A stretch of DNA of 38,671 bases from Nitrospira sp. LK70 (GTDB lineage Bacteria > Nitrospirota > Nitrospiria > Nitrospirales > Nitrospiraceae). Under the pieces are notes generated by a model. The model searched no databases, was not told where the DNA came from, and was given only the letters and a program-made list of their open reading frames with translations. Numbering within the stretch: position 1 is the stretch's first letter; each line of letters begins with the position of its first letter. Of the stretch, positions 23,162-28,851 are shown piece by piece. The position numbers and the translations under genes are program-made. Location of the stretch: positions 1 to 38,671 of the forward strand of contig PHGD01000030.1 of the NCBI GenBank assembly GCA_011090425.1, written 5' to 3'.

Positions 23162-23701
23162 GTGGCGAAGCTCATCAACGTTCATCATCCACAGCAGGCG
23201 ATGCAGCTGGCCCAGGAGTACGTCAAGACGTACATCCTCATGCCGTCCGGTCTTCTAGGCCTCATCTGTATGATCGGCGCGATCGGAGGTCTGGGACACC
23301 AGTGGCTCTCAACCGGCGACTATACATTCGGTACCTTTTATCAGAGTTCGGGGTTGTTTATATCGGGCGTAAGCTTGGGAGCATTGCAGACGCTCTATCA
23401 ACGGCATCTCTTGCGGGAGTTTCCGGAAGTTCTGGCGGCCCGTATGAAGGAAGGGCTGAATCGGCAGAGAGGCACACTCAAGAAGAGGTCGGATGCGACG
23501 ACCATCAAGCATCCGGGGCGTCAATTCGTTCCGCTCGCATATTTGCTGGGCGCGATGATCTTGATCGGAGGGACCATTGCGGCGTATGTCTACGGCAGCG
23601 TGAACATAGTTCCGGCGCTCTTGATGCCTTGGGCCGGATTTTATTGGGCAAGGCTGTTTTTGTGGCGGAGAGTGATCAAGCTAGGAAAAACCCAGGGCTG
23701 A
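23162..23701 (+). CDS. Small membrane protein of unknown function
   Basis: 179 residues, GTG start. About four hydrophobic segments are visible: MPSGLLGLICMIGAIGGLG (about 32-50), GLFISGVSLGALQTLY (about 66-82), AYLLGAMILIGGTIAAYVYG (about 125-144) and IVPALLMPWAGFYWARLFLW (about 147-167). A charged loop of about 40 residues (REFPEVLAARMKEGLNRQRG onwards) separates the second and third. No family is recognised. The stop is 4 nt from the convergent lpxD stop, and the 3' end forms part of a shared terminator-like hairpin. Confidence 0.75.
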   Translation: MAKLINVHHPQQAMQLAQEYVKTYILMPSGLLGLICMIGAIGGLGHQWLSTGDYTFGTFYQSSGLFISGVSLGALQTLYQRHLLREFPEVLAARMKEGLNRQRGTLKKRSDATTIKHPGRQFVPLAYLLGAMILIGGTIAAYVYGSVNIVPALLMPWAGFYWARLFLWRRVIKLGKTQG

Positions 23702-23714
23702 AGGGTTAGTTCTT
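23685..23714. terminator. Probable bidirectional intrinsic terminator
   Basis: AACCC (23689-23693) pairs with GGGTT (23703-23707) around a 9-nt loop. The hairpin is preceded by an A run and followed by AGTTCTTTTT, so both strands read stem-loop plus T run. It sits exactly between the convergent membrane-protein and lpxD genes and overlaps both 3' ends. The stem is short (5 bp), so efficiency is uncertain. Confidence 0.55.
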
Positions 23715-24806
23715 TTTAGAACGAGCTGCTTTTAAACGAGGCCCTCGACCTGACGAATGTTTTAGCTGCGTTTCAAGGGCTGCCACACGCTGTTCCAAAT
23801 CCCGCACGAGTTGTTTCAATTCGGGGAGCTGAAAAATAGTGCCTTGAACTCTCAGCGCTTTTTCACGCGGCATTGCCGGGATGCCGCCTACCATCTGGTT
23901 GGATCCAATATTCCGATTGACTCCAGCTTTGGCCGCGATCATGACCTGATCTCCGATGGTGAGGTGATCGGCAAGTCCGGCCTGGCCGCCGATTACCACA
24001 TGATGGCCGATGGTTGTGCTGCCGGCGATGCCCACCTGCGCGACGAGAATGCTGTGTTCTCCCACTGTGACATTGTGGGCAATCTGGACGAGATTGTCGA
24101 CTTTGGTGCCCTGCCTTATCAGGGTCCGGCCGAACGTTGCGCGGTCAACCGTTACATTGGCTCCTAGTTCAACGTCGTCTTCGATGACAACGCCGCCGAG
24201 TTGCGGGATCTTATGATGCCGGCCTTGATGCTGCACGTATCCGAACCCGTCGGCTCCGATCACGGTTCCGCTGTGCACGATCACTCGCGCACCAAGTGAA
24301 CAGCCCTCGCGAACGACGACATTGGGGTACAAAACGCAATCGTCCCCGATCGTTGAATCAGATCCTACAAAGACACCCGGATAGAGTGTGACACGATTGC
24401 CGATCGTCACGCGGTCACCCAAGGTCACAAAAGGCCAGATAGAAGGATCGGTTCCGATCCGTACGTCGGCTCCTTGTATCACCTGTTCGGCAATGCCCCG
24501 AGGAGCCGGTTGCCGGACAAAAAAAGCCTGTGCGACTCGAGCGAAGGCCAACATCGGATGGTCCACGACGATTTGCGGCACAGCGAGATCGGGTAAATGG
24601 CGATGAACCAGTAGCGCTGCGACGTGAAGGGCTGCCGCCGCCTTCGACATTTTGTCGTTGGCGATGAATGACAACGCGTCTGGATTGGCTTCGCTGAGAC
24701 TTGTTAAGCCGTAGACCGGTGTCTGGCTGTCGCCGTGAATCGTCCCTCCGACGACCTCCTGGATTTGAGCCAATGTGATTGGAGCAGGCAGTTGGGGCTT
24801 GCTCAT
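23706..24806 (-). CDS. lpxD: UDP-3-O-acylglucosamine N-acyltransferase LpxD
   Basis: 366 residues. It adds the second 3-hydroxyacyl chain from acyl-ACP to UDP-3-O-acyl-glucosamine in lipid A synthesis. The N-terminal uridine-binding domain (about 1-100, LTSLSEANPDALSFIAN) is followed by a left-handed beta-helix of hexapeptide repeats (about 110-320). The catalytic His is H244 in NLVQIAHNV, and VGGIPAMPREKALRV marks the end of the helix. The C-terminus forms a short coiled coil ending in a basic KAARSKKN tail. The ATG overlaps the stop of the ACP gene (ATGA), so acyl donor carrier and acyltransferase are translationally coupled. Confidence 0.95.
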   Translation of the reverse strand: MSKPQLPAPITLAQIQEVVGGTIHGDSQTPVYGLTSLSEANPDALSFIANDKMSKAAAALHVAALLVHRHLPDLAVPQIVVDHPMLAFARVAQAFFVRQPAPRGIAEQVIQGADVRIGTDPSIWPFVTLGDRVTIGNRVTLYPGVFVGSDSTIGDDCVLYPNVVVREGCSLGARVIVHSGTVIGADGFGYVQHQGRHHKIPQLGGVVIEDDVELGANVTVDRATFGRTLIRQGTKVDNLVQIAHNVTVGEHSILVAQVGIAGSTTIGHHVVIGGQAGLADHLTIGDQVMIAAKAGVNRNIGSNQMVGGIPAMPREKALRVQGTIFQLPELKQLVRDLEQRVAALETQLKHSSGRGPRLKAARSKKN

Positions 24807-25252
24807 CGGGTCCCGACTTTCTTTTTCCCTGACGTAACGGCGCCTATCTTCTTCGGCTTTCCGGCGGAGGCGGGTTTTGGTGAAACCGCCTTTTTGGTGG
24901 ATGATGGCTTGGCCGTCTTGCTCGTGGTCGACGTGGTTGATTTCGGCTTGCTCGCGGCGGTCGCGGCTTTGGCCGACTCGGGTTTGGACTCAGACTTTGT
25001 TTCAGTGAGCCGCCGCTGAACATAGGCGGCCACGGTACCAACGGTACTCAACCCCGGGAGGTCTTGATCGGGGATTTGAAGTTTGAATCGTTCCTCGATT
25101 TCGAAGAGCAGTTCGATGATGGCCACCGAGTCGAGGCCCAGATCATCTCGGAGATGATGAGACTCGGTAATCGACGCAGGGTCTCGTTTGAGATAGCTGG
25201 CTAAGGCCTGAGTAATTTTAGAGGTAATCGCGGGATCGACGGGTTCAGTCAT
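24803..25252 (-). CDS. Acyl carrier protein with Lys/Pro/Ser/Thr-rich C-terminal tail
   Basis: 149 residues. The first 82 or so form an ACP domain with the phosphopantetheine attachment Ser42 in LGLDSVAIIELLFEIEERF. The remaining 65 or so residues are a low-complexity tail rich in Lys, Ser, Thr, Ala and Pro (for example KPKSTTSTTSKTAKPSSTKK), strongly basic and probably disordered. Ordinary AcpP is about 78 residues, so the tail is unusual. An AAGGAG ribosome-binding site lies 8 nt before the ATG. The gene is between a ketosynthase gene and lpxD, and it is probably a dedicated carrier for this cluster rather than the housekeeping ACP. Confidence 0.9.
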   Translation of the reverse strand: MTEPVDPAITSKITQALASYLKRDPASITESHHLRDDLGLDSVAIIELLFEIEERFKLQIPDQDLPGLSTVGTVAAYVQRRLTETKSESKPESAKAATAASKPKSTTSTTSKTAKPSSTKKAVSPKPASAGKPKKIGAVTSGKKKVGTR

Positions 25253-25329: not shown

Positions 25330-26586
25330 TTATGCCACAAACTTTTTCAAGACTACCGTGGCATTGTTGCTGCCGAATCCGAATGCGTTCAAGAGGGCGT
25401 AACGAATCTTTCGCTCCTGCACGGCACGCCGGATCCCATCCAATAGGCAGGCCGGATCCGGTTCCTCGTAATTCGCAGTGGGATGAATCTGTCCGCTGTG
25501 AATTGAAAGGGTCGTTGCCACAGCACCGATCGCGCCTGCCGCCCCCAAGGTATGGCCGATCAGCGACTTCGTGGCATTGACGGCGATTTTGTCCGCGCGA
25601 TTCTTAAACAGAGTCCTGATCGCTTTGGTCTCAACGGCATCGCCGATCGTCGTGGAGGTCGCATGGGCGTTGATGTAGTCGACCTGATCGGGACCGATGC
25701 CGGCAGAGTCTAGACCGATCTTCATGGTCATGGAGATTTCCTGACCATCTTCCTGCGGAATGACCATGTGATAGGCTTCGCTGGTCGCAGCATATCCGGC
25801 AAGCTCAGCGTAGACTCTCGCTTTCCGTTTCTTGGCATGCGCCCATGATTCTACGACTAATGAGGCAGCGCCTTCCCCCATGACGAATCCATCACGGCGT
25901 CGATCGAAGGGGCGTGAGGCTCGTTCCGGAGCATCGTTAAACTCGCTGGAAAGAGCGCGCAAGGAACAGAATCCGGCAAAGACCAACGGAGTAATGCTCG
26001 CGTCGGCTCCGACGACGATTATGACATCGGCTTGACCGCTGCGAATGCATTGAAGGGCTTGACCAAGGGCATGGGCACTGGATGAGCAGGCCGTCGAGAT
26101 CGTCAGGTTCGGTCCTTTGGCGCCGTATGCCATCGCGACGATACCCGAAGCGGAATTCAGCGTGATTGTGGGAATAAAATTCGGATGTACGCGTTGTGGT
26201 CGTTGAGTTTTAAAGAGCTGAGTAATCTCGCGCTCTCCCATCACCATCCCGCCCATACCGGCTCCGACAATGACACCGACGCGATGGGGAACTTCCTTGG
26301 CCATGCTCAGATCGGCATCGGTGAGCGCTTCTTTCGTGGAGACCAAGGCGAATTGGGCGTAACGATCCACGCGGCTTGATTGTGTCGTCGGCAAATACTG
26401 CTCCGGTGAGAAATTGTGGACCTGTCCTGCAACTCGTGAACGATAGCCGGACATCGGAAACCACCCTAGGGAAGGGATCGCAGTAATCCCAGAATGGCCC
26501 GTGAGGGCCGCCTTCCAGAATTCACTGACGCCGATCCCGATGGGAGATACTACCCCAAGACCGGTAATTACCACGCGCGAGGCCAT
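25330..26586 (-). CDS. fabF: Beta-ketoacyl-ACP synthase II (FabF-like)
   Basis: 418 residues, thiolase fold. It condenses malonyl-ACP with acyl-ACP. The catalytic triad is visible: Cys167 in STACSSSAHALG, His308 in INAHATSTTIGD and His345 in SLIGHTLGAAGA. RRDGFVMGEGA and NAFGFGSNN also match. ATG 26586 is chosen over an in-frame upstream start at 26610 because AGAAGGAGGGA lies immediately before it and MASRVVITGLG is the normal N-terminus. No malonyl transferase, ketoreductase or dehydratase is nearby, so this is either a displaced fatty-acid synthase component or a specialised KS paired with the neighbouring ACP. Confidence 0.93.
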   Translation of the reverse strand: MASRVVITGLGVVSPIGIGVSEFWKAALTGHSGITAIPSLGWFPMSGYRSRVAGQVHNFSPEQYLPTTQSSRVDRYAQFALVSTKEALTDADLSMAKEVPHRVGVIVGAGMGGMVMGEREITQLFKTQRPQRVHPNFIPTITLNSASGIVAMAYGAKGPNLTISTACSSSAHALGQALQCIRSGQADVIIVVGADASITPLVFAGFCSLRALSSEFNDAPERASRPFDRRRDGFVMGEGAASLVVESWAHAKKRKARVYAELAGYAATSEAYHMVIPQEDGQEISMTMKIGLDSAGIGPDQVDYINAHATSTTIGDAVETKAIRTLFKNRADKIAVNATKSLIGHTLGAAGAIGAVATTLSIHSGQIHPTANYEEPDPACLLDGIRRAVQERKIRYALLNAFGFGSNNATVVLKKFVA

Positions 26587-26619
26587 GTTTCTCCCTCCTT
26601 CTGGGCGCACACGGCGCCT

Positions 26620-26663: not shown

Positions 26664-27755
26664 TCAATGCCTCACCTTCAATAATAGATAAAGCCCGAAG
26701 CTGAGGAACAGCGCATTGGCCATCCAACCGGCCAGCATGGGAGCCAACGCGCCTCCTCGTCCTAGTGCGATGGCGACGGAGTGGGTTGTCCAGTAGCAAA
26801 ACCCGACGATGAACGCTTGTCCGATACCCATGGCCATGCTTCCACCGCGGACTCCGCTTCGCCGCAAACTGAGCGCAATCCCGACGAGCACCATCACGAC
26901 GGTCACTAATGGGAATGCGACACGGCCGTGGTAATCCGTCAGCAGGCGGGCGAACGAGAAACCTTCGTGCTGAAAGCGCGCAAGGTAATTTCGGATTTCC
27001 CGAAACGTCATGGTATCTGAGTTCCCCACAAGTGAGGAAGAAAAATCATCGGGAATCAACGGAATGTTGATCGTCTGTTCCGTAAACAGAGCCAGCTCGA
27101 CGGTGTCGTCCGATTGGAATCGACGATGATTTCCGTTCAGCAGGACCCAGCCCTGAGGAGTATAGCGGGCTTCAGCCGCTTCCGTAATCCGATCGAGCTT
27201 AAACGGCGGACGAAAATAAAAGATTCGTATGCCTCGAAGGACTGTGCCTGCGGCATCGATCTCATTGACTTCCATCAGGCCGTCGGCGCTGATACGGGCC
27301 CAGGGTTGGACGGCCTTGACGGTGACAGGAGCCGGTCTTTGTTCGATTTGGACCACCCGGATTTCTTCGGCTTTCTCCGAGGCGAGCGGAATCACGGTCG
27401 AGCTGAAGAGAAAGAGAATGACAGCCACGCCGGTGGAAAACAGGAGAAACGGGGAGGTCATCCACAACAAACTGATCCCGCAGCTGCGCATCGCGGTGAT
27501 TTCGTTGCTGCGGGCGAGAAGACCGATCGTCAGTAGGGTTGCTACGAGAATGGCGAAGGGGGCGACTTGAAATGAAATTGAAGGGATCTTCAACGCAAAG
27601 TACGTCAGGATAGGGAGGATGCCGGACTCAAACCGGAGAAACCGGCGGACTTTTTCAAAAAAATCAATGACCACGTAGATCGTCACCAAGCCGGAAAAGC
27701 AGATTCCAAAAATTTTCATGTACTCGAAGAGGATATACCGAAATAGAATCGTCAT
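26664..27755 (-). CDS. lptG: LPS export ABC transporter permease LptG (YjgQ/YjgP family)
   Basis: 363 residues with the family layout: an N-terminal helix set (about 1-125, with PSISFQVAPFAILVATLLTIGLLARSNEITAMRSCGIS), a central periplasmic beta-jellyroll region (about 130-265), and three C-terminal helices (VAFPLVTVVMVLVGIALSLR onwards). It forms the LptB2FG complex that extracts LPS from the inner membrane. It starts 4 nt after the lptF stop. Assignment as LptG rather than LptF rests on gene order and is the less certain part. Confidence 0.88.
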   Translation of the reverse strand: MTILFRYILFEYMKIFGICFSGLVTIYVVIDFFEKVRRFLRFESGILPILTYFALKIPSISFQVAPFAILVATLLTIGLLARSNEITAMRSCGISLLWMTSPFLLFSTGVAVILFLFSSTVIPLASEKAEEIRVVQIEQRPAPVTVKAVQPWARISADGLMEVNEIDAAGTVLRGIRIFYFRPPFKLDRITEAAEARYTPQGWVLLNGNHRRFQSDDTVELALFTEQTINIPLIPDDFSSSLVGNSDTMTFREIRNYLARFQHEGFSFARLLTDYHGRVAFPLVTVVMVLVGIALSLRRSGVRGGSMAMGIGQAFIVGFCYWTTHSVAIALGRGGALAPMLAGWMANALFLSFGLYLLLKVRH

Positions 27756-27759
27756 GATG

Positions 27760-28851
27760 CTAGCGTTTGCTCATCCGTAAGAAGAGCACGATGGTGATCA
27801 TCAGGAATATGACATTGGGCAGCCATGCGCCCCAAAAGGGATGCAGGATCAACGCCGTCACCAGGAAATCGCAGCCGACATTCAGAATATAGAAGGCAAT
27901 GATGATGCCCACACCCACGGCGAATCCGCCTACACGACCGGACCGTTTCGACACGATTCCGACCGGTACTCCCAGCAGACAGAATATAAGCGATGCGGTT
28001 GGGAACGCCAGGTCTTTGTAATATTCCATGAGGCGGCGAAGCGCGCCGGCATCTTTGCCGCCGGTTTCTGCGAGGCGTAGCATAATTTGATCATATGACG
28101 GACGTTCCTCTGTCGCAGAGTAGCTGCTGAGGTTCAGGTTGATCTTGATGTCGTAGCTCGTGAAAGCAATCCGTTGGGACTGATCGACCTGGGGCGGCCT
28201 ACTATGAATCATGCCGTTCTCCAACCGGAGTGCGACGTGGTCATGCTCAGAATCCATGAAGATGTGGTACTGCTCCGCCACGATGACTCGTGGTTCATTC
28301 GGTAGGCGTTCATCCGAGATAAAGATGCCGGGAGCGGGACGTCCCTGCTCACCTTCTGGGACATAGATCATCATGTTCGGAATCGGCTCGTTGAAGGTCC
28401 CACGTTCCAGGGCGAGGGCGAGCTGATCTTTCAGCAGATTAAGCGCGACCTTCTTCAGGTTCAGGGAACTCCATGGTTGCCCCCATTGAGACAATACCAA
28501 GGTCAGCGTAAAGACACACACCGAGAAGAGAAGGACCGGCTGCGAGAGACGAAACAGGCTGAGCCCGGTCGCGCGCATGGCGATCAGTTCCTTGTCAAAG
28601 GACAACCGACCAAATGCTGTAACCGATGCGATCAGGCCCGCGATCGGAAGAGTGAGCACGAGGCCAGAAGGGAGCAGCATAGCGATCACTTTGAGAACTG
28701 CCCAGAAACCGACCCCCTTGGACACCAACAGTTCGACAAGACGCAAGAGTTCCTTGGTCAACATGACAAAGCAGAGCGCGCCGAGGCTGAGACCAAACGG
28801 AGAGAGCAGTTCCGTGAAAATGTAGCGATCGAGCAGCGTTCGTAAGATCAC
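27760..28851 (-). CDS. lptF: LPS export ABC transporter permease LptF (YjgP/YjgQ family)
   Basis: 363 residues. The N-terminal LLDRYIFTELLSPFGLSLGA helix, LPIAGLIASVTAFGRLSFDKE with the coupling-helix region ELIAMRATGLS, a periplasmic domain (about 130-260), and C-terminal helices beginning at AFPTASLIFCLLGVPVGIVS all match the YjgP/YjgQ permease family. The start is GTG with no clear ribosome-binding site. A good promoter lies about 30-60 nt upstream, so it is the first gene of the envelope cluster. Confidence 0.88.
   Translation of the reverse strand: MILRTLLDRYIFTELLSPFGLSLGALCFVMLTKELLRLVELLVSKGVGFWAVLKVIAMLLPSGLVLTLPIAGLIASVTAFGRLSFDKELIAMRATGLSLFRLSQPVLLFSVCVFTLTLVLSQWGQPWSSLNLKKVALNLLKDQLALALERGTFNEPIPNMMIYVPEGEQGRPAPGIFISDERLPNEPRVIVAEQYHIFMDSEHDHVALRLENGMIHSRPPQVDQSQRIAFTSYDIKINLNLSSYSATEERPSYDQIMLRLAETGGKDAGALRRLMEYYKDLAFPTASLIFCLLGVPVGIVSKRSGRVGGFAVGVGIIIAFYILNVGCDFLVTALILHPFWGAWLPNVIFLMITIVLFLRMSKR

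Follow-up and report, generated by a model that had tools for sequence, protein, structure and literature searches.

Why does an acyl carrier protein (ACP) encoded next to lpxD end in a long, strongly basic tail? ACPs are small acidic proteins that are recognized by basic patches of their partner enzymes. The protein considered here is basic overall, and most of the tabulated Nitrospira orthologues have a pI near 10. Its gene lies in the window, that is, the whole stretch of 38,671 nucleotides from Nitrospira sp. LK70 that was analyzed. The preliminary description had placed it at 24803 to 25252, and these coordinates are exact, with the amendment that the gene reads on the minus strand: the ATG is at 25252, the TGA ends at 24803, and the plus-strand frame over the same positions is interrupted by stops. 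The gene and its parts are as follows.

24803..25252, minus strand: tailed ACP, 149 amino acids (open reading frame and translation; PF00550, 52.9 bits; orthologues)
25007..25252, minus strand: predicted ACP four-helix core, residues 1 to 82, with the attachment site Ser42 (PF00550, AlphaFold2)
24806..25006, minus strand: predicted disordered Lys/Ser/Thr/Ala/Pro tail, residues 83 to 149 (about 67 amino acids), net charge +14 (composition, pLDDT)
24806..24835, minus strand: terminal Lys cluster (GKKKVGTR end; K/R count), the DNA of which is also a possible place for the lpxD Shine-Dalgarno sequence, a confounder

The PP-binding domain (PF00550) covers residues 12 to 78 and scores well above its cut-off of 20.8 bits; Ser42 sits in a DLGLDS motif, and AlphaFold2 places helices at residues 7 to 21, 42 to 56, 62 to 67 and 71 to 88, with pLDDT values mostly of 70 to 90. 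The modeled core is that of an ACP, a four-helix bundle. The preliminary description had claimed a long, strongly cationic, low-complexity tail behind this domain, and the tail is indeed real, conserved (see below) and predicted to be disordered, with pLDDT values below 50 at residues 87 to 144 and 146 to 149 (one residue excepted). The last 68 residues have a net charge of +14 and consist of 25% K/R, 57% S/T/A/P and 4% D/E. The K/S/T/A/P fraction was 0.81 in the tail versus a maximum of 0.53 among 9,605 stretches of 68 amino acids from the 31 other open reading frames of the window, while the beginning of one other frame also contained stretches with a net charge of +14. In the complete congeneric genome G024, the orthologue of the tailed ACP ends in a 60-mer with a net charge of +16 and 92% K/R/S/T/A/P, and a C-terminal 60-mer with a net charge of at least 12 and at least 70% K/R/S/T/A/P was found in 0 of 321 sampled proteins (predicted with a simple longest-ORF caller, a few of them not being real genes). 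A protein search of the genome with the tail alone returned, besides the query, a single weak match (E = 0.49), bias correction making this search insensitive. DNA repeat expansion was rejected as the origin of the tail, the only tandem array being short and outside it.

If the tail was the product of a frameshift or a sequencing error, it should be missing from homologues. In fact, all 109 distinct intact orthologues have an uninterrupted basic tail, and this explanation was rejected. Left out before this count were the copies that are broken or contain N (L012, L055, L020, L071, L028 and L078), a tail-less paralogue (L191), the housekeeping ACP of genome G213 (L192), three incomplete reading frames (L029, L080 and L083) and a Bacteroidota ACP below the score limit (L084). 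Assembly faults seem to account for the few broken copies: in L071 (identical to L020) the tail goes on in a different frame and lpxD comes next, L055 (identical to L012) enters unrelated sequence, and L078 (identical to L028) has a run of N. The intact tails range from 18 to 102 amino acids (median, 63) and from +5 to +27 in net charge, and charge tracks length with r = 0.94 over the 109 sequences. All 109 tails together contain two aromatic residues. The dN/dS ratio was 0.26 to 0.35 in the tail versus 0.011 to 0.080 in the core (six clades), so it appears that composition and charge were kept while sequence and length drifted. In 66 representative tails, K-P pairs were enriched (160 observed versus 99 expected); upstream of the C-terminal 12 residues KKK was depleted, and KK/KKK clusters were not enriched.

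The tailed ACP is the second ACP of the genome and not the housekeeping AcpP. With the AcpP equivalog model TIGR00517 it reached 52.5 bits, below the cut-off of 70.45. The genome encodes one other free-standing ACP, which is tail-less; in the relative G024 the housekeeping ACP is part of plsX-fabH-fabD-fabG-acpP-fabF-rnc, and this fab cluster thus holds a tail-less ACP and not the tailed one. Three more carrier domains occur in one open frame of 3,093 amino acids (G000:C104), which probably encodes a non-ribosomal peptide synthetase. A search of 295 Nitrospirota genomes with a profile of the core found tailed-ACP orthologues in 83, all of them in the order of the window: 40/40 in the genus, 36/39 in the rest of the family, 7/18 in family f3, 0/1 in family f2 and 0/197 elsewhere (counted by hand from the search table). 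One further f2 genome, G053, also has a tailed ACP. E-values were 7e-41 to 4e-33 within the group, 8e-28 for the tail-less paralogue, and 1e-19 and weaker thereafter, and the genomic data support an orthologous group of its own within the order. The paralogue (L191, on G281:C103) lies outside the operon beside frames that, from their translations, resemble an aminotransferase and a phosphatase; it possibly serves another specialized pathway.

The genes around the tailed ACP are all on the same strand, in the order lptF-lptG-KS-ACP-lpxD, where KS is a ketoacyl-ACP synthase.

23706..24806, minus strand: LpxD, UDP-3-O-acylglucosamine N-acyltransferase (TIGR01853, 359 bits; cut-off, 242.5)
23709..23783, minus strand: basic C-terminal tail of LpxD, residues 342 to 366, outside the alignment with solved E. 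coli LpxD chains
25330..26610, minus strand: ketoacyl-ACP synthase of the FabF type, the second KS of the genome (TIGR03150, 505 bits; cut-off, 493.75)
26664..27755, minus strand: LptG-like LPS export permease (PF03739, 258.7 bits)
27760..28851, minus strand: LptF-like LPS export permease (PF03739, 257 bits)

The labels LptF and LptG were assigned from gene order. The LpxD of the window is the only match above the TIGR01853 cut-off in the genome, and the ACP stop and the lpxD start overlap as ATGA here and in many members of the genus and are a few bases apart elsewhere. A link of the tailed ACP to lipid A and LpxD had been suggested before, and the conserved operon supports it: all 43 ACP orthologues fetched from outside the genus have the basic tail and are directly followed by lpxD, and KS precedes in 41 of the 43, the exceptions being one contig edge and one 29-bit fragment. 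The latter belongs to L187 (G277), in which the tailed ACP and lpxD are kept and KS is apparently missing or damaged. Given that its operon includes lpxD, we infer that the tailed ACP supplies lipid A with an acyl chain. The lpxA gene of the genome is on another contig (C123), where the order and length of the neighboring genes suggest fabZ, lpxI, lpxB and msbA. A membrane-protein-like gene without a Pfam match (23162-23701, plus strand) converges with lpxD; this neighbor is conserved across the order, even where KS and ACP are missing.

Several f3 genomes have lptG and lpxD without KS-ACP between them (L228, L237, L239, L242 and L243), and other members of the same genus, g3, do have KS-ACP (G052, G262 and G277). 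In G213, a remnant at about 1139 to 1420 of L231 lies between lptG and lpxD; it fuses a KS-like start to a fragment of the ACP. The KS-ACP pair is therefore an optional insert in the lpt-lpxD operon, and since G213 keeps LpxD with only the broken remnant, LpxD can work without the tailed ACP. The genome of G213 is small and gave no LpxA match over the cut-off. Two further genomes of one genus, G162 and G209, keep LpxC, and no LpxA over the cut-off, no LpxD and no tailed ACP were found in them; this pattern, LPS loss or assembly gaps, is weak evidence of co-loss.

The most telling result is the LpxD tail, which lies outside the feature originally described. The LpxD of the window aligned to the solved E. 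coli LpxD chains up to residue 341 and continues beyond it. Where LpxD is encoded beside a tailed ACP, its last 20 residues had a net charge of at least 4 in 104 of 105 cases, the tail being made of K/R/S/T/A/P, versus 12% of the 321 sampled proteins; its whole-protein net charge had a median of +4. LpxD proteins from genomes without a tailed ACP mostly have no basic tail (7 of 28 at or above the threshold; median, +2), and it was absent in the three f4 LpxD proteins examined. The f2 LpxD proteins have a strong tail, with a net charge of +8 to +11 over the last 20 residues in 7 of 7 located, and a tailed ACP accompanies it only in G053; in the other genomes (L240 and L251 to L255), LpxD ends in a long K/A/P/S/R tail and no tailed ACP was found. 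The tails of ACP and LpxD are thus not strictly coupled, and the basic tail looks like a trait of the LpxD module and not of the ACP only. In the genome of the window, LpxA, FabZ and LpxB lack such a tail, so it is not general to the pathway. The operon KS, too, is cationic, with a net charge of +1 to +11 (median, +7; n = 107) versus -3 to -11 in seven housekeeping FabF proteins. If the ACP tail bound LpxD, as the preliminary description had proposed, its partner should offer negative charge. LpxD and KS are themselves positive, and the correlation with ACP tail charge was weak (LpxD charge, r = -0.13; KS charge, r = 0.23). Mutual attraction through the tail is therefore unlikely, the ACP tail probably does not bind LpxD, and a shared negative target is the simpler explanation.

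Our best explanation, to which we give slightly less than an even chance, is a KS-ACP-LpxD module dedicated to lipid A, the tails of which would dock on a shared polyanion, most likely an anionic lipid of the inner membrane. KS would elongate the acyl chain on the tailed ACP, and the 3-hydroxyacyl-ACP would be handed to the co-translated LpxD. The ACP tail may act as an evenly charged, Lys-Pro-rich spacer with a Lys cluster at its end, and together with the shorter LpxD tail and the cationic KS it would hold the module at the common polyanion. The likeliest surface would be the cytoplasmic face of the inner membrane, the site of later lipid A enzymes, and acyl chains would then be made and spent at the membrane, separate from bulk fatty acid synthesis. 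Since the tail has hardly any hydrophobic anchor, binding to a membrane would be purely electrostatic and possibly weak. Of the tethers considered in the preliminary description, one to the membrane or another polyanion reads best, whereas LpxD is not supported as the binding partner. A bolder version makes the cationic tails a shared address label by which KS, ACP and LpxD gather electrostatically next to LptFG, as a patch for lipid A acylation at the inner membrane, and make an acyl chain distinct from those of bulk fatty acid synthesis; we consider it rather unlikely.

Judged from sequence, a membrane, RNA and LPS precursors fit equally as targets, and the same charge would bind nucleic acid or polyphosphate. 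A histone-tail-like role, in which nucleic acid, ribosomes or polyphosphate would be the target of the tail, so that the ACP is concentrated or lipid A synthesis coupled to growth, is unlikely in our estimate. A tail so positive and so poor in hydrophobic residues would match polyanions of any kind, and its Lys/Ala/Pro/Ser make-up is like that of the tails of histone H1-like proteins. Yet H1-type motifs were not enriched in the 66 representative tails ([ST]P[KR][KR], 5 observed versus 7.7 expected; [AP]KK, 48 versus 64), so that a DNA-binding tail of the SPKK type was rejected, and the similarly tailed LpxD points to a site common to lipid A enzymes.

The tail might instead fold back on the acidic ACP core or shield its charge, so that housekeeping enzymes ignore the carrier and the cationic operon KS and LpxD use it. 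Indeed, the core has a net charge of -4 to -10 in the 109 orthologues, opposite to that of the tail, and helices II-III have lost acidic residues (median charge, -4 versus -8 to -10 in five housekeeping ACPs; 108 of the 109 sequences, without L188, in which the motif reads DLGLNS), just as the charge of KS is opposite to that of housekeeping FabF. But the similar tail of LpxD is left unexplained, and AlphaFold2 gives the ACP tail no confident position; we regard this as distinctly unlikely.

Least probable is a loosely constrained solubility or spacer sequence, the terminal Lys cluster of which is kept as its AAG/AAA codons form the lpxD ribosome-binding site. All 109 tails have four or more K/R among their last 10 residues, and in a Shine-Dalgarno scan one clade had a good site (-7.2 kcal/mol) within its terminal KKR codons; the terminal Lys codons thus coincide with a possible ribosome site, and the Lys cluster alone is weak evidence for a function of the protein. 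The fast evolution of the tail, its variable length and the lack of Lys clusters farther upstream also fit this reading, but the tail without its last 10 residues was still net positive in 109 of 109 orthologues, its dN/dS is well below 1, and the gene after lpxD is convergent, so that the basic tail that LpxD has nevertheless kept cannot serve as the ribosome site of a downstream gene. A ribosome site only was therefore rejected for most of the tail, the terminal cluster excepted.

How does the tailed ACP compare with known specialized ACPs? AcpXL is encoded in an operon with dedicated KS genes and serves a late acyltransferase, whereas the neighbor here is LpxD, and to our knowledge it has no basic tail. 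With NF005079/PRK06508, which we take to be the AcpXL family, the tailed ACP reached 26.4 bits (cut-off, 83). The part of the source available describes AcpXL of rhizobia as a specialized ACP for certain lipid A species beside the housekeeping ACP (PMC9386255), and in this it resembles the tailed ACP. The same excerpt describes AcpR of Rhodobacteria, a second ACP that is likewise dedicated to one lipid pathway, that of sphingolipids, with its own partner enzymes; these are unlike those here, an acyl-ACP synthetase and serine palmitoyltransferase, and the word "tail" occurs 0 times in the available text (PMC9386255). Among solved structures, the best match was AcpM (1klp; E = 4.6e-13), although the tailed ACP reached only 50.1 bits with the AcpM model NF040636 (cut-off, 146). 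AcpM, the meromycolate extension ACP of mycobacteria, has a flexible C-terminal extension according to the available part of PMC6151718; the accessible text of PMC7305291 adds that it works in envelope lipid synthesis and is found on the cytoplasmic face of the membrane enzyme EmbB. AcpM is thus like the tailed ACP in its extension and its envelope lipid role and is, on these partial sources, a precedent for an ACP held on a membrane enzyme. However, AcpM binds a positively charged loop of EmbB through helices II and III (PMC7305291, same portion), whereas in Nitrospira the tail itself is strongly positive, and operon and lipid are different. A precedent for charge-aided docking in the lipid A pathway itself is LpxB: in the available part of PMC5785501, a basic surface is thought to mediate membrane association of this and other peripheral lipid A enzymes, but LpxB also needs a hydrophobic patch, and the ACP tail has none. 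In the open-licence PMC literature, we found neither a lysine-rich ACP tail nor this Nitrospira ACP described, and no work devoted to lipid A synthesis itself in these nitrifying bacteria.

The tailed ACP belongs among the specialized ACPs, a known class, and its polycationic tail is a new variation. New as well are the basic C-terminal tail of LpxD in the same operon and the contrast between a cationic operon KS and acidic housekeeping FabF. The tail of the ACP and the shorter one of LpxD suggest that a negatively charged surface, for example that of the inner membrane, serves as the docking site for both proteins. An order-wide family of basic ACPs that is linked to lipid A acylation and has a counterpart in the LpxD tail suggests that charge places part of lipid A synthesis, and it offers a testable case, in nitrifying bacteria, of how a cell with two ACPs may separate bulk fatty acids from the acyl chains of LPS.
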